Below, in pieces: positions 32,970 to 51,600 of a stretch of DNA of 64,000 nt (positions within the stretch are counted from its first letter, which is position 1; each line of letters opens with the position of its first letter). The DNA is from Alteracholeplasma palmae J233. GTDB taxonomy: Bacteria; Bacillota_I; Bacilli_A; Acholeplasmatales; Acholeplasmataceae. The notes beneath the pieces are model-generated. The model did not search any database, was not told where the DNA came from, and saw nothing but the letters and a program-made list of their open reading frames with translations. The stretch covers positions 1 to 64,000 of the forward strand of contig NC_022538.1 of the NCBI RefSeq assembly GCF_000968055.1, read 5' to 3'. The position numbers and the translations under genes are program-made.

Positions 32970-34274
32970 ATGAACAATAAGAAATTTACTTTTGTTGATT
33001 TATTTGCTGGTATTGGAGGTTTTCATCAAGCCCTTGAATCATTGGGAGGGATGTGTGTAACAGCATCTGAAATTAACGAATTTGCAAAGGAAACATACCT
33101 ATTAAATTTTCCTAAAACTCCTGTTGTTGGAGATATAAATGAAAATTGGAATAAACTTCCAGAGTTTGATGTTTTATGCGGCGGATTTCCATGCCAACCT
33201 TTTAGTAAAGCCGGTAATCAGCAAGGATTTAATGATGAAGAGAGAGGCAATCTTTTCTATAGAATTATAGATATTTTAAAAGATCACCCTGAATGCAAAT
33301 TTATAATTTTAGAGAATGTGAGAAATTTATCTGACAAGAGTGAAAATTGGGATATAATACAGAACGAGTTAAGAAATCTAAATTTTTACGTTACTGAAAA
33401 GCCACTGATTTTATCGCCAAGTCAATTTGGAATACCTCAAATTAGAGAGAGGGTTTATATATTAGGGATTAGAAAAGATATTAGGGATGCTAAAAAACTT
33501 AAAAATGGATATATACATTTAGAAGAATTGGAACTAACCGATTTACCTCCGGGATTGGGGTCTTTAAGTAATGGTGATGCATGGAAAATTTTAGAACAAA
33601 ATATTGATGATAAATATAATTTGCCTCAAGAAGAAGTTCAAATATTGGATATTTGGGATGAATTTAGACGAGGGACAAATTTTGAGCCAAGCGGAGTTCC
33701 TATTTGGCTAGATTATATGGGTATAGGTCTTTCTGATAAAAAATACAAAGACTTGACTCTATATCAGGTAAGGGCAAAGCAAGATATGAAGATTGATGAA
33801 TTACCAAAGTGGAAACAAAAATTTGCTCAAAAAAACAGAGAATTTTACAAAAAGCATAAGTTATTTATAGATAATTGGTCAAAGCAGCATAATATGATGG
33901 AAAGAATTTCAACACACAAAAAATTTGAGTGGAATGGTGGAGATGAATTTTCCTCTTTAAAAGAAGTTATTATCCAGTTTAGGCACTCAGGAATTAGAGC
34001 AAAGAAGCCAACGTATTTTCCAACGTTAGTTGCTATAAACAATAAACCAATCATTTGGGATAAAAATAAAAAAACCTATAGATATATTACTCCTAGAGAA
34101 GCTGCAAATTTACAGAGTTTTAAAAAAGATTTTATCTTTTCACCTAATGAATCCCATACTTATAAGCAACTAGGTAACGCTATAAATGTCAAGGTTGTAG
34201 AGATATTAGCAAATAAATTGATTAATTTTGCTTATGATGACTGGAACAAAGGAGCAAATGATGATGGAAAATAA
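32970..34274 (+). CDS. DNA (cytosine-5) methyltransferase
   Basis: 434 residues. All main C5-methylase motifs are present: FVDLFAGIGG (I, residues 8-17), GGFPCQPFSKAG (IV, catalytic cysteine 75), ENVRNL (VI), QIRERVYILGI (VIII), and KQLGNAINVKVVEI (X). It transfers methyl from S-adenosylmethionine to cytosine; the target site cannot be read from the sequence. The target-recognition stretch is about residues 190-330. Its end overlaps the start of the MORC-like gene, so it is the modification arm of the four-gene operon. Confidence 0.95.
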   Translation: MNNKKFTFVDLFAGIGGFHQALESLGGMCVTASEINEFAKETYLLNFPKTPVVGDINENWNKLPEFDVLCGGFPCQPFSKAGNQQGFNDEERGNLFYRIIDILKDHPECKFIILENVRNLSDKSENWDIIQNELRNLNFYVTEKPLILSPSQFGIPQIRERVYILGIRKDIRDAKKLKNGYIHLEELELTDLPPGLGSLSNGDAWKILEQNIDDKYNLPQEEVQILDIWDEFRRGTNFEPSGVPIWLDYMGIGLSDKKYKDLTLYQVRAKQDMKIDELPKWKQKFAQKNREFYKKHKLFIDNWSKQHNMMERISTHKKFEWNGGDEFSSLKEVIIQFRHSGIRAKKPTYFPTLVAINNKPIIWDKNKKTYRYITPREAANLQSFKKDFIFSPNESHTYKQLGNAINVKVVEILANKLINFAYDDWNKGANDDGK

Positions 34275-35814
34275 GATTAATATTCGTCCAACAACAGGTG
34301 TGTATGCAACATATAAGAACTTAAGATATGAGCCTTGGACAGCCATAGCAGAATTTGTAGATAACTCTACACAGAGTTTTTTTGATCATCAGGAAGAATT
34401 AACTTCCATGGCGAACTTCGGTAAATTAGTTGTTGAAATAACTTACGAACAAATGCCTGATGGAAACGATACATTGACAATAAAAGATAACGCTTATGGA
34501 ATGGAAATAGAAGATTTTGAAAGAGCCATTAAGATCGATAAACCACCTTTGAATAAAAAGGGAAGAAATGAATTTGGAATGGGATTAAAAACAGCTGCCT
34601 GTTGGTTTGGAAATTTTTGGTCAATTGTGTCAACACAATTAGGATCAGACATTAAGTATTCAGCAAGTGTTAATGTAGAAAAAATAAGTGAAACCCATGA
34701 AGATTATATTGATTATGATATGGAAAAATCAGATTTGGGAGAGCATTTCACAATGCTTACAATAAGCAATTTAAATAAAAAGATAACGGGTGGAAAAACA
34801 ATAGGTAAAGTTAAATCATTGCTAGCAAGTATATATAGAGAAGATTTAAGGCGAGGCGATATTAGCATAATTTACAATGGAACTGAATTGTTTTTTGAAG
34901 AAGTAGAAATATATAAAGAAAAGCTCCATGATGGAACTTTCAAGGAGTGGAAAACTGACATTGACATTATGGTCGAACACGAAAACCAATTTTTACCTGT
35001 CAGAGGTTTTGTTGCTATTAGACAAAAAGGGAGTGTATCTGATGCGGGACTTTCTCTTTTAAGAAGAAAAAGAGTTATCGTAGGTGGAGTAGATCAAAAT
35101 TACCGTCCAAAAGAAATATTTGGTAATTCAAATGATTTTCCCTATCAAAGAATTTTTGGCGAATTACATATGGATGAGTGGAAAGTTACACAAGCAAAAG
35201 ACAACTTTGATTGGCACAATGGAGGTTTAGAAGAAAAATTTATTGAAACTCTAATTCCGTTAATAGAAGATTTAATAAAAAAATCTGCGAAAATTAGAGT
35301 TAGACAAAAAGCAATTTCAACAGATTTTATTTCAAAAGCGGTAGAAGAATTAGCTGATGCTGGAATAATAGAAAATCCAAAAATCACCTTTATAGAAGAA
35401 GGATTAAAGGAAGAATTTATAGAACAAGGAAGTTTAATAGTTGATGATAATGAAGATACATCTGTAATTATTGAAGGACCAAAAACTTCAGAGGTGAGCC
35501 TAGAAAGAAACGGTGTTCATTATAACTTTCTTGTTAACTTTAAAGATTATTCTACACAGTGGGTACTAATAAAAAAAGAAAATAGTTCTTATAGAATTAC
35601 ACTTAACATGAAACATCCGTTTTTTAAGCCTTTAATAGATGACAGTAAGTTTATAGAGGTAATGACTAAATTTGTATTTAGTATGGCTATAGCAGAGATT
35701 GAAAGCACAGTAATGTCTCCAGATAGTAGAATTGATCCTGCTGATATCAGAATTAAAATGAATACATTATTAGAGGAAAGTTTGAAATTAAAGGAGAATG
35801 AATTAAATGAGTGA
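34261..35814 (+). CDS. MORC-like GHKL ATPase of a restriction-type operon
   Basis: 517 residues. The GHKL ATPase motifs are clear: AIAEFVDNSTQS (residues 29-38, glutamate 31 and asparagine 35), DNAYGMEI, and NEFGMGLKTAACWFG. This is the bacterial MutL/MORC-type ATPase seen beside methyltransferases and Z1 proteins. The chosen start is ATG 34261, six bases after AAAGGAG; ATG 34258 and ATG 34264 are also possible. It overlaps the methylase gene and overlaps the Z1 gene by eight bases, so the proteins are likely made together and act in one complex. Confidence 0.88.
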   Translation: MMENKINIRPTTGVYATYKNLRYEPWTAIAEFVDNSTQSFFDHQEELTSMANFGKLVVEITYEQMPDGNDTLTIKDNAYGMEIEDFERAIKIDKPPLNKKGRNEFGMGLKTAACWFGNFWSIVSTQLGSDIKYSASVNVEKISETHEDYIDYDMEKSDLGEHFTMLTISNLNKKITGGKTIGKVKSLLASIYREDLRRGDISIIYNGTELFFEEVEIYKEKLHDGTFKEWKTDIDIMVEHENQFLPVRGFVAIRQKGSVSDAGLSLLRRKRVIVGGVDQNYRPKEIFGNSNDFPYQRIFGELHMDEWKVTQAKDNFDWHNGGLEEKFIETLIPLIEDLIKKSAKIRVRQKAISTDFISKAVEELADAGIIENPKITFIEEGLKEEFIEQGSLIVDDNEDTSVIIEGPKTSEVSLERNGVHYNFLVNFKDYSTQWVLIKKENSSYRITLNMKHPFFKPLIDDSKFIEVMTKFVFSMAIAEIESTVMSPDSRIDPADIRIKMNTLLEESLKLKENELNE

Positions 35815-37975
35815 TGTTATAAAGGTTATTCCCAAAACTGACAATAAAAATGTATGGACAATAAAAAGTGATGGTTACTACAGTAACTGTGTTAAAAATG
35901 TAATGGAAGAAGAAGACTACCCAGATGAATCAATAAATTCAATAATTCAGAATGCAATTGAAACCTTGTCTCAGTGTCCAGACCCTAATATTAATGATGA
36001 GTCATCAAAAACAGGAATTGTTATTGGTAAAGTTCAAAGTGGAAAGACTTCTAATTTTATTTCTTTGATAGGCTTAGCTTTTGATAATGGTTATCAAATT
36101 GCAGTTGTTTTGGGCGGAAATAAAAATAATTTACTTGAACAAAACGTAACAAGAATTAAGAATTCTTTTAGGGTTGATGCCATGAAGTTGGTTATATTAG
36201 ACACGAATAAAAATGATGATGTTATAAATGCCAATACAATATCAGAATTTATAAAGCAAAACCGTAAAATCATTATTATAGGGTTAAAACATCAAAAACA
36301 TATTGATAAAATGTCTGATATTTTTAATAATTATAAATTATCGATAGCGCCAACAATAATTATTGATGATGAGGGAGATCAAGCAACATTAAACACAAAA
36401 AAATATAGCAAAGATAAAAAGAAAATGAGTACAATCTACGAGTCTGTATTAAAACTAAAGACTAGAATTAAAAAACATTGCTTTATTTCAGTTACAGCAA
36501 CTCCTCAAGCAAACATCTTGATTGATACCCTAGATCTCTTATCTCCAGATTTTGGAGTCTTGGTTGACCCAGGGATCGGTTACTGCGGCTTATCTGAGTT
36601 CCACGGTGACAACCAAGATAAATATGTTAAGGTTATTCCAGAAGATGAAATTAGTTTATTTGATAGTTGTGGTATTCCAATTTCAGTATATGAAGCTCTA
36701 GCTTCGTTTTTTGTTTCAAATGGTGTTAGAAAATATCGTGGTGATTTTGGAAATCATGCATTATTGTTTCACCCAAGTCAAAGAAAAGTTGATCATGCTA
36801 GTGTAGTAGAAAAGTTACAAAGTGTAGTGGACAGTTGGAAGAACAAGGCTGATTGTTATGAAGACATAGCTTATCAAAGCCTGAAAAGGCACTTAGTTTC
36901 AGCATACGACAAATATAAAAATGATGGTGTTAATTTACCGTCTTTTGTTGATTTAGAAGAATTTATTTTAGACTCGATAAAATTTTGTTCAAAAATTCAC
37001 TTGACTAATAGTGATACTGACGCAAGTAAAAATTCAGAATTATATAAAACTAATATTTTTGTCGGTGGAAATATGGTTGAAAGAGGATTGACGATAAAAG
37101 GCTTAGCCATTACTTACATAATTAGAAGAGCTAAAACAACAAGTAACGTTGATAATACAGAGCAAAGAGCAAGATGGTTTGGGTATAAAGAGGCTTATAT
37201 AGATATATGTAGAGTATACACAACACAGCAGATTAAAGATGATTTTCATCATATTTTCGAACATGATGAAGCACTCTGGGATACTATAAAAAAAGCAGAA
37301 CAACAGGGTACCCCGTTTAAAGAAATTGGTAGAGTATTTAAAAATAATAGTAGATTATTAAGATTGACTAGATCAAACGTAGCAAGAACTCAGAAACTTG
37401 ATTTTGACCAATTTAAATCTCAAAATAGTGTTATTTTAGATGAAAAAGTAGCAATAGAAAATAATAGACTTTTAGAAAAAATAAAGAATGATAACAAAGA
37501 AAAATTAATTAATATAAGGTATTCAAGGACTCAGAATCATTTATTATTACCAAATTTAAAATTTTCTATAATCAAGAAAGATCTATTTAATCTATACAAA
37601 TATCCAACAACAGGTAACCTAAATAAAGGGTTCTTTGATTTATTGGAGGCTGGGTTTCAACATCTAAAAAAAGATCCAATTACTGATATTTTGTGGGTCA
37701 GATACGAAACTAAGGAAGAACGTAATATTGATGAATCAGGAAGAATGCTTAGTACATTAATGCAAGGTCATAATCCTAATGTTAATAGCCCAGATTTTTA
37801 TATTGGTGATAGAAAACTGCCTGATGAAAGAGCTGATAACATACAGGTTCAAGTGCATCTGGTTAAGCCTAACAAAATTGTTGGGTATGATTTTTATTTA
37901 CCTTTTTTTGTTATATATCTACCATCTAAGTTAACCGAGGCATTATCATCGTTTGTTACCAAAGGAGAAAAATAA
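35807..37975 (+). CDS. Z1-domain superfamily II ATPase (restriction-type)
   Basis: 722 residues. Walker A GKVQSGKT is at residues 74-81, followed by a Walker B-like IIDDEGDQ and motif III SVTATPQANILID. The Z1 domain shows GGNMVERGLTIKGLAITYI then TEQRARWFGYK. Z1 proteins are thought to be helicase-like motors of modification-dependent or restriction systems. ATGAGTGA joins the upstream stop to this start, and its TAA overlaps the next ATG (TAATG), so coupling is tight. Confidence 0.9.
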   Translation: MSDVIKVIPKTDNKNVWTIKSDGYYSNCVKNVMEEEDYPDESINSIIQNAIETLSQCPDPNINDESSKTGIVIGKVQSGKTSNFISLIGLAFDNGYQIAVVLGGNKNNLLEQNVTRIKNSFRVDAMKLVILDTNKNDDVINANTISEFIKQNRKIIIIGLKHQKHIDKMSDIFNNYKLSIAPTIIIDDEGDQATLNTKKYSKDKKKMSTIYESVLKLKTRIKKHCFISVTATPQANILIDTLDLLSPDFGVLVDPGIGYCGLSEFHGDNQDKYVKVIPEDEISLFDSCGIPISVYEALASFFVSNGVRKYRGDFGNHALLFHPSQRKVDHASVVEKLQSVVDSWKNKADCYEDIAYQSLKRHLVSAYDKYKNDGVNLPSFVDLEEFILDSIKFCSKIHLTNSDTDASKNSELYKTNIFVGGNMVERGLTIKGLAITYIIRRAKTTSNVDNTEQRARWFGYKEAYIDICRVYTTQQIKDDFHHIFEHDEALWDTIKKAEQQGTPFKEIGRVFKNNSRLLRLTRSNVARTQKLDFDQFKSQNSVILDEKVAIENNRLLEKIKNDNKEKLINIRYSRTQNHLLLPNLKFSIIKKDLFNLYKYPTTGNLNKGFFDLLEAGFQHLKKDPITDILWVRYETKEERNIDESGRMLSTLMQGHNPNVNSPDFYIGDRKLPDERADNIQVQVHLVKPNKIVGYDFYLPFFVIYLPSKLTEALSSFVTKGEK

Positions 37976-38934
37976 TGGAAATTGATAAATTATATCAAAC
38001 ACTAAAAAATATTGAAAAGCCAGTGGACAACAGTTATAATGTTGTTAAAATAGAAAATAGTTATTATGGTATTTCAAAAGAGGGTTATATAACGTTTATT
38101 AGTGAAACTGATAACGAGCATATTAGACCAACATCTCAGCGAACAAAACATCTCTTTCTAGAGACAAACATGAAATGCTCTTTAAAAACGGATGAAGTAA
38201 TATATGAAGGAATATATAACGTTCTTGTTTGTTTTGAATCAAACTATGAATCTATTATTTCATTTATACAACTTACGAATGTATATTCAAAATCAAGGAA
38301 AAGCACGTTAATTAATATTAAAACTTTTTTTGAAACATTAAAGAACTTATTTTCGAACAAAAAGCAACTACCTCTATTAGAATTGCAAGGATTATTTGGT
38401 GAACTATATTTTATGTATTATATTCAAAATGATAAGTTTGATATTTCTGATTTTTGGCAATCAAAGGAAAAAATGAAATTTGATTTTTCTATTACGGAAT
38501 ATAATAAAATAGAAATCAAAACTACAACTGGAGATTCAAGAGTCCATAAATTTAGGCATGAACAACTTGTTTCAGATATTTATGATACATGGATTGTTTC
38601 TATAATGTTAAGAAAAGATGATCAAGGTCTTTCTTTGTATGAACTATCTGAGAACGTAAAGAAGAATAATCCTCTAAAATTTAATTTACATATTCGCATT
38701 ACAAATTTACTTAATAATTATACTAAAACTGAGTTAGAACAAATTAAATTTAACGAGAATTATATAAAAAGTAACATGGGATTTTATAGAACATTAGATA
38801 TCCCAAGGTTTCAAGAAAAACAGCCTAAAGGCGTATATAATACAGAGTATGATGCCGATTTAAGCAATGTTAAGAAAAACAATAAAACACAAATCAACGA
38901 ATGGATTTGCAAGTCTTTAAAATTAAATCAATAA
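37975..38934 (+). CDS. PD-(D/E)XK protein (DUF4420-like), candidate nuclease
   Basis: 319 residues. LLELQGLFGELYFMYYI is followed by a PD-(D/E)XK active-site pattern: FDFSI (aspartate 170) and IEIKTTTGD (glutamate 180, lysine 182). This fits the restriction-nuclease-like protein that follows Z1 genes in MORC-type operons. It starts on the TAATG overlap with the Z1 gene. It is the probable DNA-cutting arm. No AIPR-domain gene is found after it, unlike many related operons. Confidence 0.82.
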   Translation: MEIDKLYQTLKNIEKPVDNSYNVVKIENSYYGISKEGYITFISETDNEHIRPTSQRTKHLFLETNMKCSLKTDEVIYEGIYNVLVCFESNYESIISFIQLTNVYSKSRKSTLINIKTFFETLKNLFSNKKQLPLLELQGLFGELYFMYYIQNDKFDISDFWQSKEKMKFDFSITEYNKIEIKTTTGDSRVHKFRHEQLVSDIYDTWIVSIMLRKDDQGLSLYELSENVKKNNPLKFNLHIRITNLLNNYTKTELEQIKFNENYIKSNMGFYRTLDIPRFQEKQPKGVYNTEYDADLSNVKKNNKTQINEWICKSLKLNQ

Positions 38935-39074: not shown

Positions 39075-39680
39075 CTAAAAATTAATTTTTTCTAGAAATA
39101 GATATTTATAAAAAGATGATTTAGATATTCCTAACACTTTAATAGCTTCACGAGAAGTTAATTCTTTATTCTTAACTTTACTAACGATATCTTTAAAATT
39201 ATTAGGCAATTTAACTCTAGGGCGTCCCATGTGGATGCCCTTTTCTTTTGCAAGTTTAATTCCTTCGGCTTGCCTTTGCTTAATATTATCTCTTTCATTC
39301 TCTGCGACAAATGACAACACCTGTAAAACAATATCACTAATAAACTTACCAACTAGATTATCAGGTTGTATTCTAGTATCTAAAAGGGGCATATCAAGTA
39401 CTTTGATATCTGCCCCTATTTTTTTAGTTATAAACGACCATTCTTCAATAATCATTTCATAGTTTCTTCCTAAACGATCAATACTTTTAACAATTAATAA
39501 ATCCCCATATTTTAATTTGTTTTTAAGTTTTAAATACGAATCTCTTTCAAAATCTTTACCACTTTGTTTATCGATAAAGATATTTTTCTTAGATAATTTT
39601 AATTTTTCAATTTCATCTAATTGTCGATCAATAGATTGTGTTTTAGATGAAACTCTTATGTATGCATATGTTTTAGTCAT
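39075..39680 (-). CDS. Serine recombinase (resolvase/invertase type)
   Basis: 201 residues. The catalytic domain shows YIRVSSKTQSIDRQ with the nucleophile serine 11, and SIDRLGRN with arginines 69 and 72. The long helix region (SFVAENERDNIKQRQAEGI) and a Hin-like HTH (LTSREAIKVLGISKSSFYKYL) follow. The start is ATG at 39680 with AGGAGG directly upstream; a longer frame to 39707 includes that site. It is small-type, fit for resolution or inversion between short sites. Two inverted 22-bp sites lie directly upstream (39728-39880), so an invertase role is likely. Confidence 0.92.
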   Translation of the reverse strand: MTKTYAYIRVSSKTQSIDRQLDEIEKLKLSKKNIFIDKQSGKDFERDSYLKLKNKLKYGDLLIVKSIDRLGRNYEMIIEEWSFITKKIGADIKVLDMPLLDTRIQPDNLVGKFISDIVLQVLSFVAENERDNIKQRQAEGIKLAKEKGIHMGRPRVKLPNNFKDIVSKVKNKELTSREAIKVLGISKSSFYKYLFLEKINF

Positions 39681-39772
39681 AAAATTCCTCCTGTATGTAA
39701 AATGCAAGACTTATTTTAACACTAAACATTCCTATAAGGTACACCTTTTAAAACTCATTAATATATAGGCTG

Positions 39773-39801
39773 ATCCTATCACTTTTTAGCTAAATAATCA
39801 A
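39773..39801 (-). promoter_or_regulatory. Recombinase promoter inside the invertible segment; GATC overlaps its -10
   Basis: On the minus strand: TTGATT (39801-39796), a 17-base spacer, then TAGGAT (39778-39773). GATC at 39772-39775 overlaps the -10, so methylation by the neighbouring dpnM product could affect it. Confidence 0.5.
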
Positions 39802-39825
39802 GTTTATATAAAAATACTATTAAAT

Positions 39826-39854
39826 TTGACACACTTTCTATCAAAAATAACAAT
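39826..39854 (+). promoter_or_regulatory. dpnM-operon promoter inside the invertible segment
   Basis: A consensus -35, TTGACA (39826-39831), then a 17-base spacer and AACAAT (39849-39854, 4 of 6 to the -10 consensus). It points to dpnM in the present orientation and would point to the recombinase after inversion. Confidence 0.55.
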
Positions 39855-39905
39855 TCCTAAAAGGTGTACCTTATAGGAATATTTTTTAATCTAGAAAGAG
39901 GCATT

Positions 39906-40733
39906 ATGAATCCAGTATTAAAGTGGGTTGGCGGAAAAAGACAGTTATTACCTAAGATAGTAGAGCTCATGCCAAAAGAATATAATCGTTATTATGAACC
40001 ATTTGTTGGTGGCGGTGCCTTACTGTTTGAAGTTTTACCAAAGGTTGCTGTTATAAACGATATGAACTCAGAATTAATTAATCTTTATGAGGTCTTAAGT
40101 AATGACAAGGATTATAAAGAATTTATTCAATACTTAGATCTACATGAACTTAATCATTCTAAAGAATATTATTATGAGATTAGAGAGATGGATAGAGATG
40201 ATAATTTTTCTCAACTATCTAAAGCGATACGAGCAGCTAGAGTAGTGTATTTAAATAAAGCCGGATTTAATGGACTTTACAGAGTCAACTCAAAAGGTTA
40301 CTTTAATGTTCCTTTTGGTAAAAAAGATAAAGTATCTATCTATTCAAAAGACAACTTAGAATCAGTACATGAATATTTATCTAATAATAAAATAGATATT
40401 AGAAATATAGATTTTGAAGCATCTGTTAATGATGCTAAAGAAAATGACTTTGTCTACTTTGATCCACCTTATGATCCATGGGAAGAAAAGAACTCATTTA
40501 CATCATACACTCAATTTGATTTTACTAAAGAAGACCAAGTAAGGCTCTTTAATGTTTTTAAAGCCCTTGATAAAAAGGGAGTGAAAGTCATGCTTAGCAA
40601 TCATTATACTGATTTTATAAAGGATTTATACAAAGACTATAGAATAACTGTGGTTCCTGCTAAAAGGCTTGTAAACTCAAAATCTAGTGGACGTGGTGAT
40701 GTTTTAGAAGTCTTAATTACTAACTATGAATAA
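39906..40733 (+). CDS. dpnM: DpnM-type Dam DNA adenine methylase (GATC)
   Basis: 275 residues. It has the N-terminal NPVLKWVGGKRQLLP, the S-adenosylmethionine motif FVGGGALLFE (33-42) and the catalytic DPPY at residues 186-189, ending SGRGDVLEVLITNYE. This is the Dam/DpnM group that makes N6-methyladenine in GATC. The start is ATG 39906, after AAAGAGG; the open frame from 39864 includes part of the recombination site. It overlaps dpnA by eight bases. Its methylation protects the host from the DpnB product. Confidence 0.94.
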   Translation: MNPVLKWVGGKRQLLPKIVELMPKEYNRYYEPFVGGGALLFEVLPKVAVINDMNSELINLYEVLSNDKDYKEFIQYLDLHELNHSKEYYYEIREMDRDDNFSQLSKAIRAARVVYLNKAGFNGLYRVNSKGYFNVPFGKKDKVSIYSKDNLESVHEYLSNNKIDIRNIDFEASVNDAKENDFVYFDPPYDPWEEKNSFTSYTQFDFTKEDQVRLFNVFKALDKKGVKVMLSNHYTDFIKDLYKDYRITVVPAKRLVNSKSSGRGDVLEVLITNYE

Positions 40734-41484
40734 ACCATACTACTTAAATAATTCTTTTTCGCTATATCATGGTGATTCACTAAAAATATTAAAGTTTATA
40801 GAAGAAAAGTCTATTGATATGATATTTGCAGATCCACCCTATTTTTTATCTAACGATGGTATAACATGTCAAGGTGGAAAAATGGTTTCTGTTAATAAAG
40901 GTTCTTGGGATAAAACAGAAATGGATGTAACTGAAAAACTTGAGTTTAATAGAAATTGGATTAGGCTTTGTAAAGCAGTTTTGAAAGATAATGGAACAAT
41001 ATTTATATCAGGGACATTTCATAATATATATATTATTGGATACGCATTAGAATTAGAAGGATTTGAAATCATCAATAATATAGTTTGGAGAAAACTAAAT
41101 CCGCCACCACACTTAGCTAAAAAAGCTTTTACTCACTCTACAGAAACAATACTATGGGCTAGAAAAAAAGGCTTTAAAAATAAATTTAATTATGATTTGA
41201 TGAAAGAAATTAATAGCGGTAAACAAATGAAAGATGTTTGGGAATTTAGTTTAACCAAGCCTAGTGAGAAAAAAGAAGGAAAACATCCAACACAAAAACC
41301 GATCGCTCTATTAGAAAGAATGATACTTGCCTCAACTAGTGAATCTGACCTCATATTAGATCCATTTAATGGAAGTGGGACAACAGGGGTTGCAGCTAAC
41401 AAACTAAAAAGAAAGTATATTGGTATCGATATGGATAGTAACTATTTAGATTTAACAATTAGAAGATATGAGAAAGGGATTTAA
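40726..41484 (+). CDS. dpnA: DpnA-type second adenine methyltransferase
   Basis: 252 residues, of the beta group with the order DPPY (residues 36-39) then FNGSGTTG near the C-terminus (about 212-219), the reverse of dpnM. KHPTQKP is also present. In the pneumococcal DpnII system DpnA methylates GATC also in single-stranded DNA, which protects incoming transforming DNA; by homology the same is likely here. It overlaps dpnM and lies five bases before dpnB. Confidence 0.93.
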   Translation: MNKPYYLNNSFSLYHGDSLKILKFIEEKSIDMIFADPPYFLSNDGITCQGGKMVSVNKGSWDKTEMDVTEKLEFNRNWIRLCKAVLKDNGTIFISGTFHNIYIIGYALELEGFEIINNIVWRKLNPPPHLAKKAFTHSTETILWARKKGFKNKFNYDLMKEINSGKQMKDVWEFSLTKPSEKKEGKHPTQKPIALLERMILASTSESDLILDPFNGSGTTGVAANKLKRKYIGIDMDSNYLDLTIRRYEKGI

Positions 41485-41489
41485 GTCAA

Positions 41490-42356
41490 ATGGAAAATAG
41501 AAGTTTTGACAAATTAATAAACGGGTTAAAAAGTACAATTACATCATATGATTATTATGTGAACTTTGATAAAGTATTTAAAGAAGTCAAAGATGTTAAA
41601 TATAATTTAAATGTTCTAAATATTTTAATAGGTGAAGATAATTTTGCTGAAGAATTTAAAAAAATGCTTGTTAAGAATCCTGATGTAGTAGGAGTATTAC
41701 CGATTCTTTTAGCAGTAAGAGATAAACAATTAGATATTCTAGATAATAATGTTGTTATAACATATGACTTTAAAGAAAACATGGATGCAAAATATTATCT
41801 AGATTTCATATATAAAACAAGACTTATAGAATTATTTAGTGACTATGGTATAAAAAATCTTGTTGACTATGTAACAGGGATAGAAGTTGGCTTAGATACT
41901 AACGGCAGAAAAAATAGAAGTGGGAGTGCCATGGGATTAACAGTCCAAAGAATCATTTCTAATATAAGTAATATCAAATGGGAAAAAGAAGCAACCCAAC
42001 AAAAGATTAAAGATACACTTGGAATAGAAATTAAAGAAGAGTATTTTGAATACACTGGAAACAAACGTTTTGATTTTGTTATTAAAAACGATAACGGTCA
42101 TCTTTTTTTAATAGAAACTAATTATTACCGCACAACAGGATCTAAACTTAATGAAACATCTAGAAGTTATATTAAACTAGCAGAGAATTTAAAACATATT
42201 CCAGAAGTAACATTCATTTGGATTACTGATGGATTAGGCTGGCTAAAAACTAAAAACAATTTAAAAGAAGCATACAATAAGATTCAATATGTATTTAATA
42301 TAAGTGATTTAGAAAACGGATTATTAGAACAACTCATTTTGGAAAAGAAAAAATAG
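41490..42356 (+). CDS. dpnB: DpnII/MboI-type restriction endonuclease (GATC)
   Basis: 288 residues. The whole length reads as R.DpnII, including GIEVGLDTNGRKNRSGSAM and the putative active-site strand region KRFDFVIKNDNGHLFLIETNYYR (about 190-212). It cuts unmethylated GATC. Third gene of the dpnM-dpnA-dpnB order, five bases after dpnA. Complete frame, so the system looks functional. Confidence 0.92.
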   Translation: MENRSFDKLINGLKSTITSYDYYVNFDKVFKEVKDVKYNLNVLNILIGEDNFAEEFKKMLVKNPDVVGVLPILLAVRDKQLDILDNNVVITYDFKENMDAKYYLDFIYKTRLIELFSDYGIKNLVDYVTGIEVGLDTNGRKNRSGSAMGLTVQRIISNISNIKWEKEATQQKIKDTLGIEIKEEYFEYTGNKRFDFVIKNDNGHLFLIETNYYRTTGSKLNETSRSYIKLAENLKHIPEVTFIWITDGLGWLKTKNNLKEAYNKIQYVFNISDLENGLLEQLILEKKK

Positions 42357-42391: not shown

Positions 42392-42655
42392 ATGAAAAAA
42401 TTCAACTTATTAGAATACACACAAGAAGTCATAGAAAAACTAGATAAAGAAAACTTATATATTACACATCTAACCATCGCATATAAAGTAGTTAACTATT
42501 ATAATAACAATATAGATGATGTAAAAAAACTTTCAAATGCTACATTTAATCAAATCGTTGAGCAAGTATATGAAGAATATATGGATAATGATAATAGAGA
42601 TATCTTAGATGAAATCATAGAAAATATTCTGAATAAAGACGAGTCCTTTAGTTAA
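42392..42655 (+). CDS. Small acidic helical protein in the DpnII locus
   Basis: 87 residues; no family recognised. It is helical and acidic in its second half (EQVYEEYMDNDNRDILDEIIENIL). A TATAAT at 42368-42373 and GAGG before ATG 42392 suggest its own promoter. It lies between the restriction gene and the GIY-YIG gene and could be a regulator or an inhibitor, but nothing in the sequence shows this. Confidence 0.6.
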   Translation: MKKFNLLEYTQEVIEKLDKENLYITHLTIAYKVVNYYNNNIDDVKKLSNATFNQIVEQVYEEYMDNDNRDILDEIIENILNKDESFS

Positions 42656-42668
42656 TAAAGGGCTTTTT
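42643..42668 (+). terminator. Terminator after the 87-residue gene
   Basis: AGTCCTTTA-GTTAA-TAAAGGGCT (9 bp with one G-U pair) then six T; it overlaps the end of the coding region. Confidence 0.85.
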
Positions 42669-42689: not shown

Positions 42690-42718
42690 TTGACATAATT
42701 CTAAAAATATGATCTAAT
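42690..42718 (+). promoter_or_regulatory. Promoter of the GIY-YIG/DUF262 operon with GATC in its -10
   Basis: Consensus TTGACA (42690-42695), a 17-base spacer, TCTAAT (42713-42718). GATC at 42711-42714 overlaps the -10, so the DpnM methylation state may tune it. Confidence 0.7.
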
Positions 42719-42749: not shown

Positions 42750-43358
42750 GTGAATGGTGAGATAAATTTGAAGGGATGGAATCAAATTATATTTAACCTT
42801 ATTGTCAATAAATTTCAAAACACTAAATTTACAACAAGTGACATCTACAGATACATACCAGAATTTAAAAAAGTCTATCCAAACAATAATTATATTGAAG
42901 AAAAGATAAGACAGACATTACAAAAATTAAGGGATAAAAAAATAGTGAAGTTTATTGATAAAGGGATATGTCAATTAATTCCAGAATACAAAAAAGAAAC
43001 AGTTGAAGCAAAGGAAAAGAAAAACACAAGAGATTTTGTATATCTTATGTCCAATGAATCAATCCCAGGGTGGATCAAAATAGGAAGAACAAACTCTATA
43101 ACTAAAAGAGTTAGACAGTTAAATACTGGAGCACCTCTTCCTTTTATTGTTGAAAAAACAATAGAAACACATTCAGCATATGATTCTCTAACTTTGGAAA
43201 AAACAATACATGCAATGATAGATACAATTAACCCAAATGTTAGAAAAAACACTGCAGCTAGTAAAAGAGAGTTTTTTATGTTAACAATCGATCAAGCAAT
43301 TAAAATATTTGATTTAGTAGTAAAAATTAATCAAACAGAAATAAATAAAAACATATAG
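42750..43358 (+). CDS. DpnI-like winged helix fused to a T5orf172 GIY-YIG domain
   Basis: 202 residues. Residues ~9-77 (GWNQIIFNLIVNKF, YPNNNYIEEKIRQTLQKLRDKKIVKF) resemble the C-terminal winged helix of DpnI, which in DpnI contacts methylated GATC. Residues ~95-187 are a T5orf172/GIY-YIG region: FVYLMSNES, WIKIGRTNSITKRVRQLN (putative catalytic arginine 120) and a glutamate near 150. The start is GTG 42750, seven to eight bases after AAGAAGG. The stop overlaps the ribosome-binding site of the DUF262 gene. A nuclease reading GATC or its methylated form is possible; this is inference from domains and context. Confidence 0.75.
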   Translation: MNGEINLKGWNQIIFNLIVNKFQNTKFTTSDIYRYIPEFKKVYPNNNYIEEKIRQTLQKLRDKKIVKFIDKGICQLIPEYKKETVEAKEKKNTRDFVYLMSNESIPGWIKIGRTNSITKRVRQLNTGAPLPFIVEKTIETHSAYDSLTLEKTIHAMIDTINPNVRKNTAASKREFFMLTIDQAIKIFDLVVKINQTEINKNI

Positions 43359-43369
43359 GGAGATAATTT

Positions 43370-45105
43370 ATGGAGAAGAAATATATTTTTAGAGACTATA
43401 CATATAGTCAATTAAAGAACAATATAAACATGCCGAGTTTTCAAAGAAGAATGGTTTGGAATTTAAAACAAAAAAAGAATTTATTGAAAGTGTTCTAATA
43501 GGTGATCCGTTTGGTGTTTTGCTGCTTTATAGTAAATTAGGCAGTAATAAGCATAGCGTTATTGATGGACTTCAAAGATTTACAACCTTAAAAGATTTTG
43601 ATAAGAACCCATTTGCGTATATTACAATTGATGAGACAAACTACCCAGAGTTACTAGAAATAGCTGATAAAATTGTTTCTTATTATAACGATCAAGAAAT
43701 CAGTGTTATTTTAAAAGAAGTCAAAAGATGTTTTAGTACAGTTATTAGAGATAAACAGGATTTTATTAATAGTAACAAGTTTGCTGATAGATTGATTAAA
43801 GAATTATTAAGAACATATCCAGGATTGGAGAACACACCTCAATACCATCAAATTTATACTAAAATAATTCTATTATGGAATAACTTAGAAAAAGTAATAA
43901 ATCTAGATTCGCTTGAAATACCTGTAATTCTTTTTACAGGCGATGAATCAGAACTTCCATCTATCTTTGAAAAGCTTAATCAAGGTGGGACTAAGCTTTC
44001 TAAATATGAAGTATTTGCCTCATCATGGGATGGAACTATTTTAAAAGGTGTGGATAGGGAAATAACTAAAAGAGTAGAGGCAAGATACAAAAAAATTATC
44101 GAAGAAACAGAATTAGAAATAGAAAACTATAACGAAGGTTCAATAAAAGGAGAAGGAAAGGTTACTTTGTATGAATATTGCCTAGCAATGGGGAAAATTC
44201 TTACAGAAGAATTGAAAGATATATTTCCATCTAAAAAGTATGATGATTCTGTAATAGATACGATTGGTTTCGCATCTCTTATAACATTTTTAGGAATGCA
44301 TTTGAAAAATATGAATAAACTAGACAAGTTTATTAATGATAAAATTAAACCAAGCAATTTAGATAATTTTAAAAATCTCATTATAAGAAGTTTTAAAGAA
44401 GTAATTGCCATACTTAAGCCTTATATATCGATCTACTCTAAATACATAGAAGCTCAAATGCTTTCTATTGCGTATACATGGTTTAAAATTCATTATGAAT
44501 TAGATATAGATACATTAGAAATAACAAATAAAAAAGATACTATGAATAACCTAAGATTGTTTACTAAGTATATGCCATATAGATACTTAAATGATATTAT
44601 TAGAAGCGAATGGTCTGGTCATGGAGATAATACATTAAATGAAATTATAAATCAGGATTTAAATAGAAATAGATATTTAATACCTATTCCAGAAGATACA
44701 TGGCAACAAAATATTAAAGATTGGATAGAAACGCAATCTAACAAACCCCTTAAAACATTTACTAGTGATTCAAAATTATTCTATTTATTTGCTACAAAAA
44801 AATATAGAACTAATGATGAACAAAAATATATTATAACCCATATTATTCCTAAGTATGTTGTAGAAAAAATAGCAGGAAACATATCAATGAGTCCTGTAGG
44901 AAATCTATATTTACTACCAGAAAAAGACAAAGCACATAAGTATGATATTTTATACAAAGCAAAACGATCAGTAGAAGGATATGAATACCCAAATAAGGAA
45001 CAAGTTCAATGGGTAATTGATGAAAATTACAGTTTAAATAAATATGAACAATTCTTAGAAGAAAGAAACAAATTTTTAATCAATGAATTTTTAAAACAGT
45101 TATAA
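43370..45105 (+). CDS. GmrSD-like DUF262 + HNH (DUF1524) protein, split by a -1 frameshift
   Basis: The first frame begins at ATG 43370 after AGGGAG and reads to NINMPSFQRRMVWNLKQKK, the normal DUF262 N-terminus, then stops at 43496-43498. The -1 frame continues as EFIESVLIGDPFGVLLLY with the DGLQRFTTL motif and a C-terminal HNH-like part (THIIPKYVVEK and GNLYLLPEKDKAHK), about 578 residues in all. The switch point is A AAA AAG (43471-43477), the classic slippery heptamer, in a run of seven A. Full-length protein could arise by ribosomal frameshifting or by slippage to eight A; otherwise the gene is off. The family includes modification-dependent restriction enzymes. Confidence 0.8.
43471..43477 (+). 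other. A AAA AAG slippery heptamer / A7 tract
   Basis: In the reading frame of ATG 43370 the phase is exactly A-AAA-AAG, the same heptamer as E. coli dnaX. A -1 slip here enters the long frame with no lost codon. Confidence 0.8.
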
Positions 45106-45688: not shown

Positions 45689-48600
45689 ATGTTAAGGAAA
45701 AATAAGAATTTAGTTTTTTTAAGTCTACTAGTGTTTTTTATGTCTATATTAGTGGTGTTGTATTTTATGACACAAAGGCCAATAGCTAGTAGTCAAGAAA
45801 GTGTTGAAGCCGAAAGTAAAGATTATGAGCCAGCAAACACTCAATTATTGGCAACCTCTCATCTATTTACTGCATATGACAGTAAAGGAGTTAGGACATA
45901 CCAAGGTAATGTCTTTCAATATGCAATTAATAATGCAAAAACGGGGGGGCGAATTGATTTTATTAAGGGGTACAGCATTACTACGAAGTTGACTTTTAAA
46001 ATTGGTTATAGCCTAACGATTAATTTTAACGGATCTACCTATGTTAACAATACATCTCAGAACTTTATTGAACTCACCTCGGGAACACTAACACTTAATG
46101 GAGGCGGAGGTTTCACAAATAATGGAAGTGGACCAGCAATAAAAATCACTGGTGGAAAAGACTGGAGACCGGTAGTTAATCTAAATAACGCAAAATTAAA
46201 AACTAATGGTCAGCACGCGCTTTATATTGATGGAGGTCGTGCTATCATCAATAATTCGACAGTAGAAGGTAACAATTATAGTGTTTGGATAGTTATGCCT
46301 AACGGGGCAAATAATTTACCGGAATTAACTGTAAAGGGAAACTCAGTTGTCTATGGTATTTATTCAGGGGCTACAAATTCAAAATTTGGTGGTAATATCT
46401 ATATTCAAGGCGGAGCAATTAGAAAAGGTAGAGACGCTACTCGTGCAATTCAAAGTGGAAACACTACTAATTACTACATCACAGGTGGAAGTTTTTATGG
46501 AACAGCCTCTGATATCACTTACTTTAATGGATTAAACAAAAATAGTAGTCAATACAGATTAGTATCTTCAGGATCAAATTATTCAACAATGAAAAGATAC
46601 TCACAACCCAAATTTGATTTAATGGGTGGTAAGTTTGTAGGATACACCCCACCAGCATATCACTACTATGGAGATGTCTATAACTTTGCGAATGCAAATC
46701 AAATAGAATATAGAAAAGGTAGTGGTATAAAGTTTGCAGGATGGTATAAGGATAAAGCATATACTCAAGGATCATATACTCATAGACTAGCAACTGCGAC
46801 GACTAATGACACATATTATGCAAGATATACTTATACAGTAGAATTTGACAAAAATGGTTCAACTGAAAACCCAGTTAAAGGGAATAACTTCACGCGTACA
46901 TTCAACGCTGGAAATGGCGTTTATAATAGTATGCCAACACATACATTAACAAGACCAGGTTATAAATTTATGGGATGGTCAAGATCAAAAACAGGTGCTG
47001 CAACTTGGAAACCTGGTACAGCTATGAACTATGATGCGAATGTTGTTAATGGAAAAGTAACGCTTTATGCAGTTTGGGAACCAGAATTACTAAAGAGTAA
47101 TTATGCAGTTCAATACTTTTTTGAAAGGCTTGATGGAACATATTTCCATGATACAACAAGAAATACAAGATTTAATTCAACAGCAGGGAATATTAGTGAT
47201 CCAAGTTTTGCATCATTTACTGGACATACTATCAGTAATAAACAAGAACATATCAATTTAAGGAAAGTTGTCGTTAGAGGTGATAACACATCAGTTGTAA
47301 AACTTTACTATAACTTAAATAGATATACAGTGAAGTTTAAAGATGCCTTAGGCAATGATTATGGTGATCTTCAGACAATTAAATATGGTGGAAGTGCAAT
47401 TGCACCAGAGACTCCGCCTATAAAATTTGGTTATGATTTTTTAAGATGGGATCAATCCTTTAATTCTATAACAAAAGATTTAGAAATTAAACCTATCTAT
47501 AGCCCTAAAAAAATGAATTTCCGATTTAATCATCAAACAGGGGATGATGCATTTACAAACATCAGTCAAATTTTTGACAACCAAATTATATTTCCTAAAT
47601 CAATCGCCTATTCAGGAAAGATATTTTTAGGCTGGTTTGATGAAAATGGTAAGCAATACAATGAAAATGATATAGTTAATGTTGAATCTGACTTAAGTTT
47701 AACAGCTAAATGGAAAAGTGGTAAACCTGGAAATAAAATTATACTTAAACAACTCACTGACACAAGACTTATTTTTAGTAATTATGCAAACTATGAATAC
47801 AGACTAGAAGAAATAGGATCTTCAGTAGGGGAATACTATGATTGGACACTAGGCAATGCAAAAAGTTTTTCAAATTTAAAACCTAACACAGAATACAAAC
47901 TGTTTGTTAGAATTCCAGGGGCAACTAATTTTGATCCTTCTGATCAAATTGAAGTGGGTACCTTTAGAACTTTAATAAACTTTGATATTAAATTTGAACA
48001 TGCAACAGATACTCAAATTTTCATTAAAGTACCAACTTTAAATATGAGATATGGACTTAAAAATCCAGAAGGAAAAGCCTTTGGATATACTAATTATGTT
48101 AAAAATGAAGATAATACATATACTTTAGAATACTCTGGTCTTAACCCAAATACAGTTTACAGTTTGGAATATCAAACAGAAAAAGGATTTGAAGCATCGC
48201 TTAATTATGACTCTCATAAAGTAGTTTTTAACAAAGAACTTAAAACACTGGAAAGTGCAGTAGCGTTTGTTGGAGATAACAATATTACAATAATATCTAA
48301 TGAAAATGGTGTAGTTGTGATTGGAGAAAACCTTAATGAGACTTATGAATATCGTTTAGGTAGCGGACAGTGGATGAAACCAACTGATGGTAGAGTTACT
48401 TTTAATCATGCAAATAAAGAAATTGAAGGTAACATCTATGTTAGAAATATGCAAACAGAAACACATGCAGCATCACTTCCGGCAATCACTCAAACAGATT
48501 CTACTAAAAATTCAGCCGTAGAATTAACAGAAGAAGAACGTACACATTTAAGAGAAAGTCATGATGATGATAATTACCGAGTAACTGCTAAACCTGGATA

Positions 48601-51600
48601 CATATATAGTGTAGGGGATAAAATTACTAATGTGGATACTAATGGCTTTATCATATACGCTAAAAATACACAATTACTCATACAAAGAGATCAAACTACT
48701 TTATATGAACAAAGCAACATAGCTCCAATTATTTCATTTGAAAGACCTAATTTAACAGATGATGAGCGTAATATAGACCTTCGTTTAGTAGAAGATGAAC
48801 TTATCATGCAAGTAACAAATCCAAAAACTAATATTAGTTATCAGTTACGCGAAGAAGAAGGATCCACTGTTATTCAAGGTGTGATGGAAAATGGTATAAT
48901 TTGGTTTAATGATTTAAAACCTGGGACAACTTACAATTTATGGGTTCAAAAAACATTAGAAAATAATCCATATAAATCAGAATATCGATATATTAAAAGT
49001 GAAACAACAGGGGTACAACCAATTATTATAGAAGAAGGAAGTGAATTTACACCGGCATTTAACTATAGTATTGGATATTCAAATGAAGAAAAGCATCAAG
49101 TGATTGTCCATACACAAATTGGTTATGACTATATGTATGAAAATCAAATTTACAAAGGTGATGGTAAAAACTGGATTATTAACCACCTTGAACCAGTCAC
49201 AAATTATACATTCAAAGTCAGAATTAATGATAGCCAATATGTTTCTAATTACATGGACGTTATAGCACGTACGACAAAAATTCCAAAAGCATTCATTAAT
49301 CCAATTGATCAAACAGTAGAATTAAAAATCACAGATGATCAAATAATAATACTTAATGCACTTTCAGGATATGAGTATGCAATTGTTGAAGATGGGAAAA
49401 ATGTAGATGAAACTCATCTTGAATATATTTCTGGAAATGATGAATTGACATTCTATAATTTAAAACATGCAACTATGTATAAAATATATTCAAGAAAAAT
49501 AGAAGATGACAAATCTGAAGCATCTCATCTTTATGCTGTAGAGATGAAAGAAGATGGAGTAACGCTTCAAACAGCCAAAACTAAAAAGTTAACAACACCA
49601 AAGGTTTTACTACCTACATCAGATGAAGTAAAAAACATTTTAGAAGGATTACGCGTTACTAACCAAAAAATCTTACTTTCAGCATATGAAAATTTTGAAT
49701 ATCTAATCATAAAGAATGGTGGTACAGTAGGTGAACACTCAGTTTGGGTGACGTCAATAGAATTAACAGAACTTAACATAGATGACATTTATGACCTTTA
49801 TATAAGACGTGCTCAAACAGATACCGAAGAAGTATCAAAAGAATCATTTATTAGAGAAATTATTATTAATAAAGATGAACAAGAATTTGATGGAAAAGAA
49901 GTTATAATTGTTTCAGTTTTACATGATAAAGTATTTTTTAAACAAGAAATAGGTTATGATTATTCTATCGATCAAGAAAACTGGGTAACAGCTGAATATA
50001 CAGGTAATCAAAGCTTTGATAACTTAAATCCAGTAACAACTTACCAAATATACATCAGACTAACTGAAACAGAAAACAAGCTTCCTTCTAATGATTTCTC
50101 AGGAGCTTCTTTTACAACGACTAAAATACCAACTAGTAGTGTTTCTATAGATTTAGATACATTTAAGATTGAACTTAAAGAAAAAACAGATACTAGACTA
50201 TTATTTAGTATTGAAACACCTAAAAACGGATTAGTTTATGAATATAGTATCGATCAAACTAACTGGATAAGCACAGTTAATAATGAAACTTTATTTAACC
50301 AATTAAACCCATACACTATGTACAATATTTATGTGAGAAGTTTAGAAAATGATACACAAGAAATATCAAAACCATTTAACTTAGCAAGTGAACAAACACT
50401 AGCTCCTATTCCAACAAGAGAAAACAGTCTCCTAGATTTAGATATTACTGAAACTAGTATAGGATTTACCCTAGCTTATGGCTATGACTATAGAGTAGAA
50501 GCAGATGGTGAGGATACATGGTTTAATAGATTAGGAATGATGTATTATCAAAAAGATGAACTTACTGAAGGTCAAGCAATAACTATTATTGTTAGACGTG
50601 AAGGAACAGATGAAGCATATTCATTTGAAATCATGGTTAGAAGAAAAGGATTAATTCCAGAAGATTTCAATGTTCAATTAGTTGGAGAACCTACAGATAT
50701 TAGTATTACAATTGATGTAGATTCAGAATATGCGTATGCTATTAAAGAAAAAAACAGCGAGCAAGAATTAAACTACATCACTTTTACTGAAAGTGGCAGT
50801 CATACATTTACAGAACTGCAAGCTTTTACGGATTATGAAATATATGTTAAAAAACTAGCAACAGATGAAACAACAGAATCACTAGAAAAAATGGCTTTAG
50901 AAGTAAAAACAGATAAAGTACCTGCTGAAAAGAGAAAGCCACTTTCAATTGTCGAACAACATATCGTTTTGACAGATGATAATAGAAATAAAGACCCATT
51001 TATTTTTACCGGTTATGAAGGACTTGAATATGCAATGGTTGATGAGGGAAGTGAGCCTCAAGAAAGTGATTGGAAACGAAGTAGTAATCACATCTATGAA
51101 TTTAGCAATGTTAGAAATAAAATATTTTTTGTTAGAAGACATGAAACAGAAAATAAATACGCAGGAATATTTATTGAAGCTCCTCTTAGAGCAAGAGCAA
51201 TCGCTCCTGATGAAGATTTGGCTAAAGTAAGAGTAGATAATTTTGACACAGGAAAAAATATTTTAGTTTATGGATTAGAAAATGCAGAATACTCACTAGA
51301 TAATGAAACATGGTTAGCTGGTGAAAACATACTATTTGAAACAATCCCTAATACAGACTATATCATCTATGTTAGACGTACAGGAGAAAACCTTGTGCCA
51401 TCTGAATCACGACAAGCAGTTATTTACAAAAAAATAAGAGATGATCATTACGAAGTTGAAGATGGGAAAGAAAATAACATTACAACACCAAAAGAATTTA
51501 TTGTAATTAATAAAGAAAATGTCATGATTATTGGAATAAGTAGCACAGGATTTACTATTTTAGGTGAAGAAATCTATGAATACTCAATTGATGAGAATAC

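Follow-up and report, generated by a model that had tools for sequence, protein, structure and literature searches.

Invertible promoters flipped by serine recombinases are well known (PMC5903667; reviewed in PMC11868660 and PMC11892184), the master invertase Mpi of Bacteroides fragilis being one such enzyme (PMC5903667), and invertible promoters controlling methyltransferases have been suggested in general terms (PMC10333322). Type I restriction-modification systems are also known to be altered by DNA inversion, one of them being the phase-variable hsd locus of Mycoplasma pulmonis (Dybvig and Yu 1994, cited in PMC11892184; PMC9465063). The locus analysed here, from Alteracholeplasma palmae J233, resembles Mpi and other invertons in combining a small serine recombinase with short promoter segments framed by inverted repeats. 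As with Mpi, one enzyme may serve several loci; here there are three site pairs and two recombinase genes. Mpi is known to act on capsule and surface loci, whereas the switch here would act on an operon for type II restriction-modification, its promoter alternating between this operon and the recombinase gene itself.

The locus is also comparable to hsd of M. pulmonis, in that a mollicute restriction-modification system would be changed by site-specific DNA inversion. The hsd systems are of type I and the DNA inverted is specificity/coding DNA, whereas here the system is of type II, the DNA is ~125 bp of promoter sequence and the enzyme is a serine recombinase. Inversion at hsd is carried out by a tyrosine recombinase. 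As in the DpnI/DpnII systems of Streptococcus pneumoniae, there is a dpnM-dpnA-dpnII operon, here with a gene for a DpnI C-terminal-domain protein close by. In pneumococcus the DpnI and DpnII cassettes are alternatives found in different strains; here, by contrast, both kinds stand in one cassette, the DpnI_C proteins carry GIY-YIG or PLD domains, and the operon has a putative invertible promoter. The recombinase shares its catalytic fold and residues with Hin/Gin and with Sin/Bin3, but here the segment is ~125 bp and the recombinase gene lies outside it.

The initial annotation regarded an invertible promoter built into such an operon as a new arrangement. This stands insofar as a literature search that took in few subscription papers turned up no type II operon, DpnII-type or other, described as having an invertible promoter. 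It has to be narrowed in that restriction-modification by DNA inversion is already known from M. pulmonis, and in that a second type II case (L100, below) emerged from our comparisons.

The window, i.e. the whole 64,000-nucleotide stretch analysed, forms the start of a genome of 1,554,229 bases, which consists of one contig and is designated G000 in the comparisons. The features of the locus are collected in Table 1. Directly beside the DpnII cassette lies a four-gene defence-like operon (32970-38934) encoding a C5 methyltransferase, a GHKL-type ATPase, a Z1-domain helicase and a DUF4420 (PD-(D/E)XK) protein. Further on, 45689-55441 encodes an exported protein of 3250 aa in which Listeria-Bacteroides repeats and fn3-like modules occur.

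Table 1. Features of the recombinase-DpnII locus (positions in the window; strand as + or -)
Feature	Position	Strand	Remarks
Small serine recombinase, 201 aa, presumed invertase	39075..39680	-	PF00239, E 3.8e-25
Left inverted repeat	39728..39750	+	Core AAGGT-AC-ACCTT 39736-39747; central dinucleotide AC 39741-39742, presumed crossover
DNA enclosed by the two central dinucleotides, presumed invertible	39743..39865	.	Homologous segments oppositely oriented at two paralogous loci of the same genome
Conserved predicted promoter TTGATT-17-TAGGAT, extended -10 (TGA), toward recombinase	39773..39801	-	GATC 39772-39775 overlaps -10
TTGACA-17-AACAAT toward dpnM, proposed in the initial annotation	39826..39854	+	Not conserved; p 0.17 against shuffles
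Right inverted repeat	39858..39880	-	Core AAGGT-GT-ACCTT 39861-39872; central dinucleotide GT 39866-39867
dpnM-like D12-class adenine methyltransferase (Dam family)	39906..40733	+	D12 MTase 5.1e-67
dpnA-like N6_N4 methyltransferase	40726..41484	+	1.4e-63
DpnII-type restriction endonuclease	41490..42356	+	DpnII REase 3.8e-92
ORF, 87 aa	42392..42655	+	Conserved behind dpnII in three other cassettes (82-88 aa)
Terminator-like hairpin and T run, ends DpnII operon	42641..42665	+
Separate promoter-like element TTGACA-N14-TGATCTAAT	42690..42718	+	GATC overlaps -10; in 4/4 cassettes, spacer variable
DpnI_C (methyl-GATC-reading winged helix) and GIY-YIG-type T5orf172	42750..43358	+	DpnI_C 3.1e-20, T5orf172 4.8e-16
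GmrSD_N (type IV restriction) gene	43369..45105	+	10 bp behind DpnI_C gene; frame broken, A7 tract near start

We think it likely that the segment is an invertible promoter, flipped by the recombinase and switching between the recombinase gene and the DpnII operon. Two 22-bp copies in perfect inversion had been claimed in the initial annotation, and direct sequence reading bears this out: 39728-39749 (ATTCCTATAAGGTACACCTTTT) and 39859-39880 (AAAAGGTGTACCTTATAGGAAT) are perfect reverse complements (22/22). The perfect match is even one base longer, at 23 bases (Table 1), and 27 nt match at 96% (39724-39750/39858-39884). The opposed AC and GT centres described for the AAGGT-NN-ACCTT cores are likewise present; the sites are palindromic with a non-palindromic central dinucleotide of opposite polarity, and their core centres are 125 bp apart. 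Extended into its inner flank, the right repeat becomes an almost perfect palindrome of 28 bp, as long as the dimer site of a resolvase or invertase. A two-site pattern with a 95-125 bp gap occurs in 3 of 88 family genomes and in none when the pattern is read backwards. A stricter pair pattern, scanned for in 395 genomes of the class, was found in G000 and G005 only, and no pair pattern was found in viral contigs.

A chance origin of the repeats is ruled out, since the arms are too long and stand 107 nt apart, and since dinucleotide shuffles of the 450-bp flanks of related loci peak at 18/22 against 22/22 for the DpnII-locus pair. A plain terminator hairpin is ruled out by the same long arms with 107 nt between them. 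As in invertons, the segment is short, surrounded by inverted repeats and bounded by an inverted central dinucleotide. Tn3-type res, by comparison, comprises several directly oriented subsites suited to deletion, whereas there are only two sites here and their polarity is inverted. The suitability of the sites for inversion by a serine recombinase, also claimed at the outset, is supported by these inverted non-palindromic centres and by members of the recombinase clade adjoining such inverted pairs.

The gene beside the sites does encode a small serine recombinase, with a PF00239 domain, the catalytic Arg and Ser and a DRLGR motif. The catalytic-type residues R9, S11 and D68-R69-L70-G71-R72 are invariant across six aligned homologues. 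The closest solved structures are Bin3/Sin (7.4e-33) and gamma-delta resolvase, with DNA invertases matching more weakly, and the best named NCBIfam match is the Mpi master invertase family NF009949, at 55.7 bits and so far below the curated cut-off of 272. A scan of 84,980 genomes yielded 80 recombinase loci, from Firmicutes and relatives, at 52-69% identity. Together with one viral-contig locus, they provide 35 flanks in which an inverted pair reaches 18/22 or more; in the shuffle control (best of eight per flank) 3 reach 18/22 and none goes above. Among viral contigs, the recombinase was found in one phage-like contig, without a site pair, and plasmid and phage relatives of the recombinase have at most 53% identity.

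Targets in the clade are diverse and include glycosyltransferases, large exported proteins and a complete type II restriction-modification pair. The last is found in an Oscillospiraceae MAG (L100, 5992-8981), where the recombinase is followed by an inverted site pair and then by a C5 methyltransferase and an NgoFVII-type endonuclease. Judged by its genes, L100 appears to be another case in which a switch of the same recombinase clade precedes a type II system.

Within the segment, the initial annotation had proposed one promoter facing each way, to be exchanged on flipping. Both pairs of hexamers exist, TTGACA (39826-39831) and AACAAT (39849-39854) on the plus strand and TTGATT-17-TAGGAT on the other, but only the latter is conserved, in four species, and stands above shuffles (0/60 score as well); it is the predicted promoter of the segment. 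The recombinase-side half is conserved at 4/4 DpnII loci as TTGATn-17-TAGGAT or TTGAAT-17-TACGAT with an extended -10, and in all four this promoter faces the recombinase. The dpnM-side half shows no conservation among the four loci and TTGACA-17-AACAAT is missing from the related ones. We rejected an exchange of two promoters because the dpnM-facing box lacks both conservation and significance. In G000, G014 and G001 a GATC overlaps the -10 of this promoter, whereas in G005 it is the -35 that is overlapped.

The dpnM start lies only ~25 bp beyond the right repeat, which leaves too little room for another promoter in between. A single promoter is likely to drive either the recombinase or the DpnII operon, depending on its orientation. 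Since the one conserved promoter faces the recombinase, the assembled state is most likely that in which DpnII is off or low and the recombinase is on. In the wider recombinase clade, too, the stronger promoter is more often aimed at the recombinase, i.e. in the off state. Two Lachnospiraceae-type relatives, L073 and L096, carry homologous strong consensus promoters (TTGACT-17-TATAAT) in opposite directions, facing the target in L073 and the recombinase in L096.

A whole-genome scan for AAGGTNNACCTT revealed two further pairs, at 1,056,534/1,056,658 and 1,089,984/1,090,108. All three pairs have the same AC..GT polarity, with spacings of 125, 124 and 124 bp; four single AAGGTNNACCTT sites elsewhere in the genome have other centres and are at chance level. 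The third pair adjoins a recombinase paralogue with 66-68% identity, and the second, which no recombinase gene adjoins, would have to be served in trans. Both loci (L005 3017-4670, L006 2936-5312) have a paralogous small membrane ORF and an AAA ATPase on the same side, the ATPases being 64% identical with distant AbiLi/OLD-like matches. A conserved palindrome, GATACNNGTATC, lies between switch and gene in both.

These two loci carry a trace of inversion. Their ATPase-side flanks are colinear (893 bp, 75.7%, plus strand, E 2e-177), whereas from site to site the alignment switches to the minus strand, L005 4533-4673 against L006 4482-4622 (69%, E 3e-10). The interior without the arms also aligns only in inverted orientation (64% over 97 bp, E 2e-7; no plus-strand match), with shuffles giving z 5.4 for this orientation and 0.5 for the other. 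Given colinear flanks and an inverted site-to-site stretch, the segment bounded precisely by the sites was inverted in one of L005 and L006 relative to the other, so inversion between such sites has happened at paralogous loci. The promoter-like element has an extended -10 that reads TGTTAGAAT in L005 and TGCTAAAAT in L006; at one locus it faces the ATPase and at the other it faces the opposite way, and the L006 segment promoter is weak by score. Opposite orientations were thus observed between L005 and L006 and between L073 and L096, and none at the DpnII locus itself.

The operon beside the segment was correctly named as DpnII-type: matches to the D12 MTase, N6_N4 MTase and DpnII REase families identify a D12-class methyltransferase, a second N6 methyltransferase and a DpnII-family endonuclease, from which we infer GATC specificity. 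Recombinase, site pair and dpnM-dpnA-dpnII occur together in G000, G014, G005 and, decayed, in G001, with 86% (G014) and 73% (G005) recombinase identity to that of the window. Both dpnM and one site are decayed in G001, and in G006 the recombinase and one site are kept and the operon is lost. None of the genes neighbouring the cassette in the window occurs in the three other cassette regions; as neighbours differ between species, the cassette moves as a unit. Among 45 dpnM-type loci, the pair is present at 4/4 with the recombinase and 0/41 without it, a link between recombinase and sites that is one of association. Several of the 41 recombinase-free loci have an ordinary promoter just upstream or an extended N-terminal reading frame. 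An Anaeroplasma MAG (L038, 2691-5946) has a recombinase divergent from a DpnII operon and no site pair; its endonuclease gene is split over two frames. Related strains had been suggested as a place to look for both orientations; all four known DpnII loci, the window's included, face the same way, with none in the opposite orientation.

This uniformity bears on two other readings of the locus. The sites could be operators. Bound to both of them in the manner of Tn3 TnpR at res, the recombinase would then occlude or loop out the promoter that divergent genes share, and invert nothing. The divergent arrangement suits looping, as does helical phasing (centre spacings in the clade keep to whole turns of the helix, with R 0.62 at 10.5 bp and p 3e-4), and L038 retains the divergent genes without the pair. 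Operators, however, need no polarity. When palindromic GT-NN-AC sites near recombinase relatives were chosen without requiring any relation between their centres, 18 pairs were inverted, none direct, 4 self-complementary and 4 other, so that the non-palindromic centres are inverted in 18/18 scorable pairs of relatives; they are also inverted in 6/6 Acholeplasma-family pairs. A count of 18 inverted against 0 direct is not what operators or resolution sites would produce. Furthermore, homologous segments are oppositely oriented at L005/L006 and L073/L096, and Tn3-type res, with three subsites, is laid out differently. We consider operators a very unlikely explanation.

The single orientation across four species would also fit a switch that was once active and is now locked, or flips very rarely, at the DpnII locus, the promoter serving the recombinase only and DpnII being weakly expressed through TTGACA-17-AACAAT or silent. 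Cassettes do die, as the decayed site and dpnM of G001 and the lost operon of G006 attest; the window genome, however, has perfect sites, an intact recombinase frame and all catalytic-type residues, and on balance locking seems unlikely here. It is barely credible that the repeats regulate nothing and are instead the ends or landing sites of a mobile element, whether this is the recombinase gene or the whole cassette. A mobile element would agree with the differing cassette neighbours and with short serine recombinases often being mobile-element enzymes, but the pair encloses ~125 bp of non-coding DNA with a conserved promoter and not the cassette. It is also present at loci whose target is an ATPase, a C5 methyltransferase or a glycosyltransferase, and each time it lies either close to the target or between it and the recombinase.

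With an invertible promoter as the preferred reading, recombinase dimers would bind the two palindromic sites and then pair them, and strand exchange at the central AC/GT dinucleotide would flip the promoter between the sites. As assembled, the promoter would read into the recombinase gene, with dpnM-dpnA-dpnII off or low; after a flip it would read into dpnM-dpnA-dpnII, away from the recombinase. We infer that the adjacent recombinase flips the segment, that transcription does start at this promoter and that flipping turns the DpnII operon on and off within a population. Some observations count against this reading. A segment that drives the recombinase should erase its own orientation, yet this is the orientation assembled in 4/4 cases; L038 has divergent recombinase and dpnM genes without a site pair; and the L006 segment promoter scores weakly.

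Behind the DpnII operon, the separate promoter-like element at 42690-42718 has an imperfect -10: its second base, expected to be A, is the C of the GATC. Across 88 family genomes there are eight occurrences of the pattern, and none when it is read backwards. Four occurrences precede the gene behind the DpnII operon; the other four stand directly before GmrSD_N (type IV) genes in G023, G024 and G076 and before a GmrSD_N remnant in G005. A sample outside the family gave two new matches, one preceding an AIPR gene and one inside a coding gene, and DpnI_C/GIY-YIG homologues away from the DpnII switch lack the downstream GATC promoter. The element is a candidate for a promoter through which modification-dependent restriction genes sense methylation. 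A precedent is pIN of IS10, which overlaps a GATC and is repressed when Dam methylates it.

The gene that follows joins DpnI_C to a nuclease domain, as in DpnI-like nucleases, and its product aligns with residues 186-252 of DpnI (4esj); cutting is predicted from the domains, and the product is a candidate for the nuclease of the opposite state. Cassette nuclease genes encode DpnI_C with GIY-YIG in the window, in G005 and, broken, in G001, and G014 has AIPR and a PLD-nuclease-DpnI_C protein instead; the same methyl-GATC-reading domain is joined to different nuclease domains across cassettes. For the frame break in the adjacent GmrSD_N gene, a pseudogene, a slippage-type switch and an assembly error are candidates.

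Taken together with the switch, these genes raise the tentative and rather doubtful idea of a phase-switched DpnI/DpnII alternation within one genome. Speculatively, methylation by DpnM would silence the downstream promoter, and loss of methylation would allow the methyl-GATC nuclease to be made. In the dpnM-facing state, GATC would be methylated and DpnII would destroy unmethylated incoming DNA, while the silenced GATC promoter would ensure that the methyl-GATC-dependent nuclease spares the chromosome. In the recombinase-facing state, methylation would be lost, the downstream promoter would wake, and the DpnI_C nuclease would destroy methylated DNA, e.g. that of phage propagated in cells of the opposite state.

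If promoter inversion turns an entire type II restriction system on and off, as proposed here, methyltransferase and endonuclease would switch together, which poses a survival puzzle for an unmethylated genome entering the DpnII-on state; the same puzzle arises on switching off, when the cell has to survive while methylation decays. The locus makes this question testable in a small-genome bacterium. AAAGGT-AC/GT-ACCTTT pairs spaced at whole helical turns offer a signature for finding such switches in Firmicutes and mollicutes. To our knowledge, opposite DpnI/DpnII restriction states have so far been known only as a difference between strains. If the alternation is true, each sub-population would restrict phage coming from the other, and, if wired as proposed, one clone could present opposite restriction states to phages.
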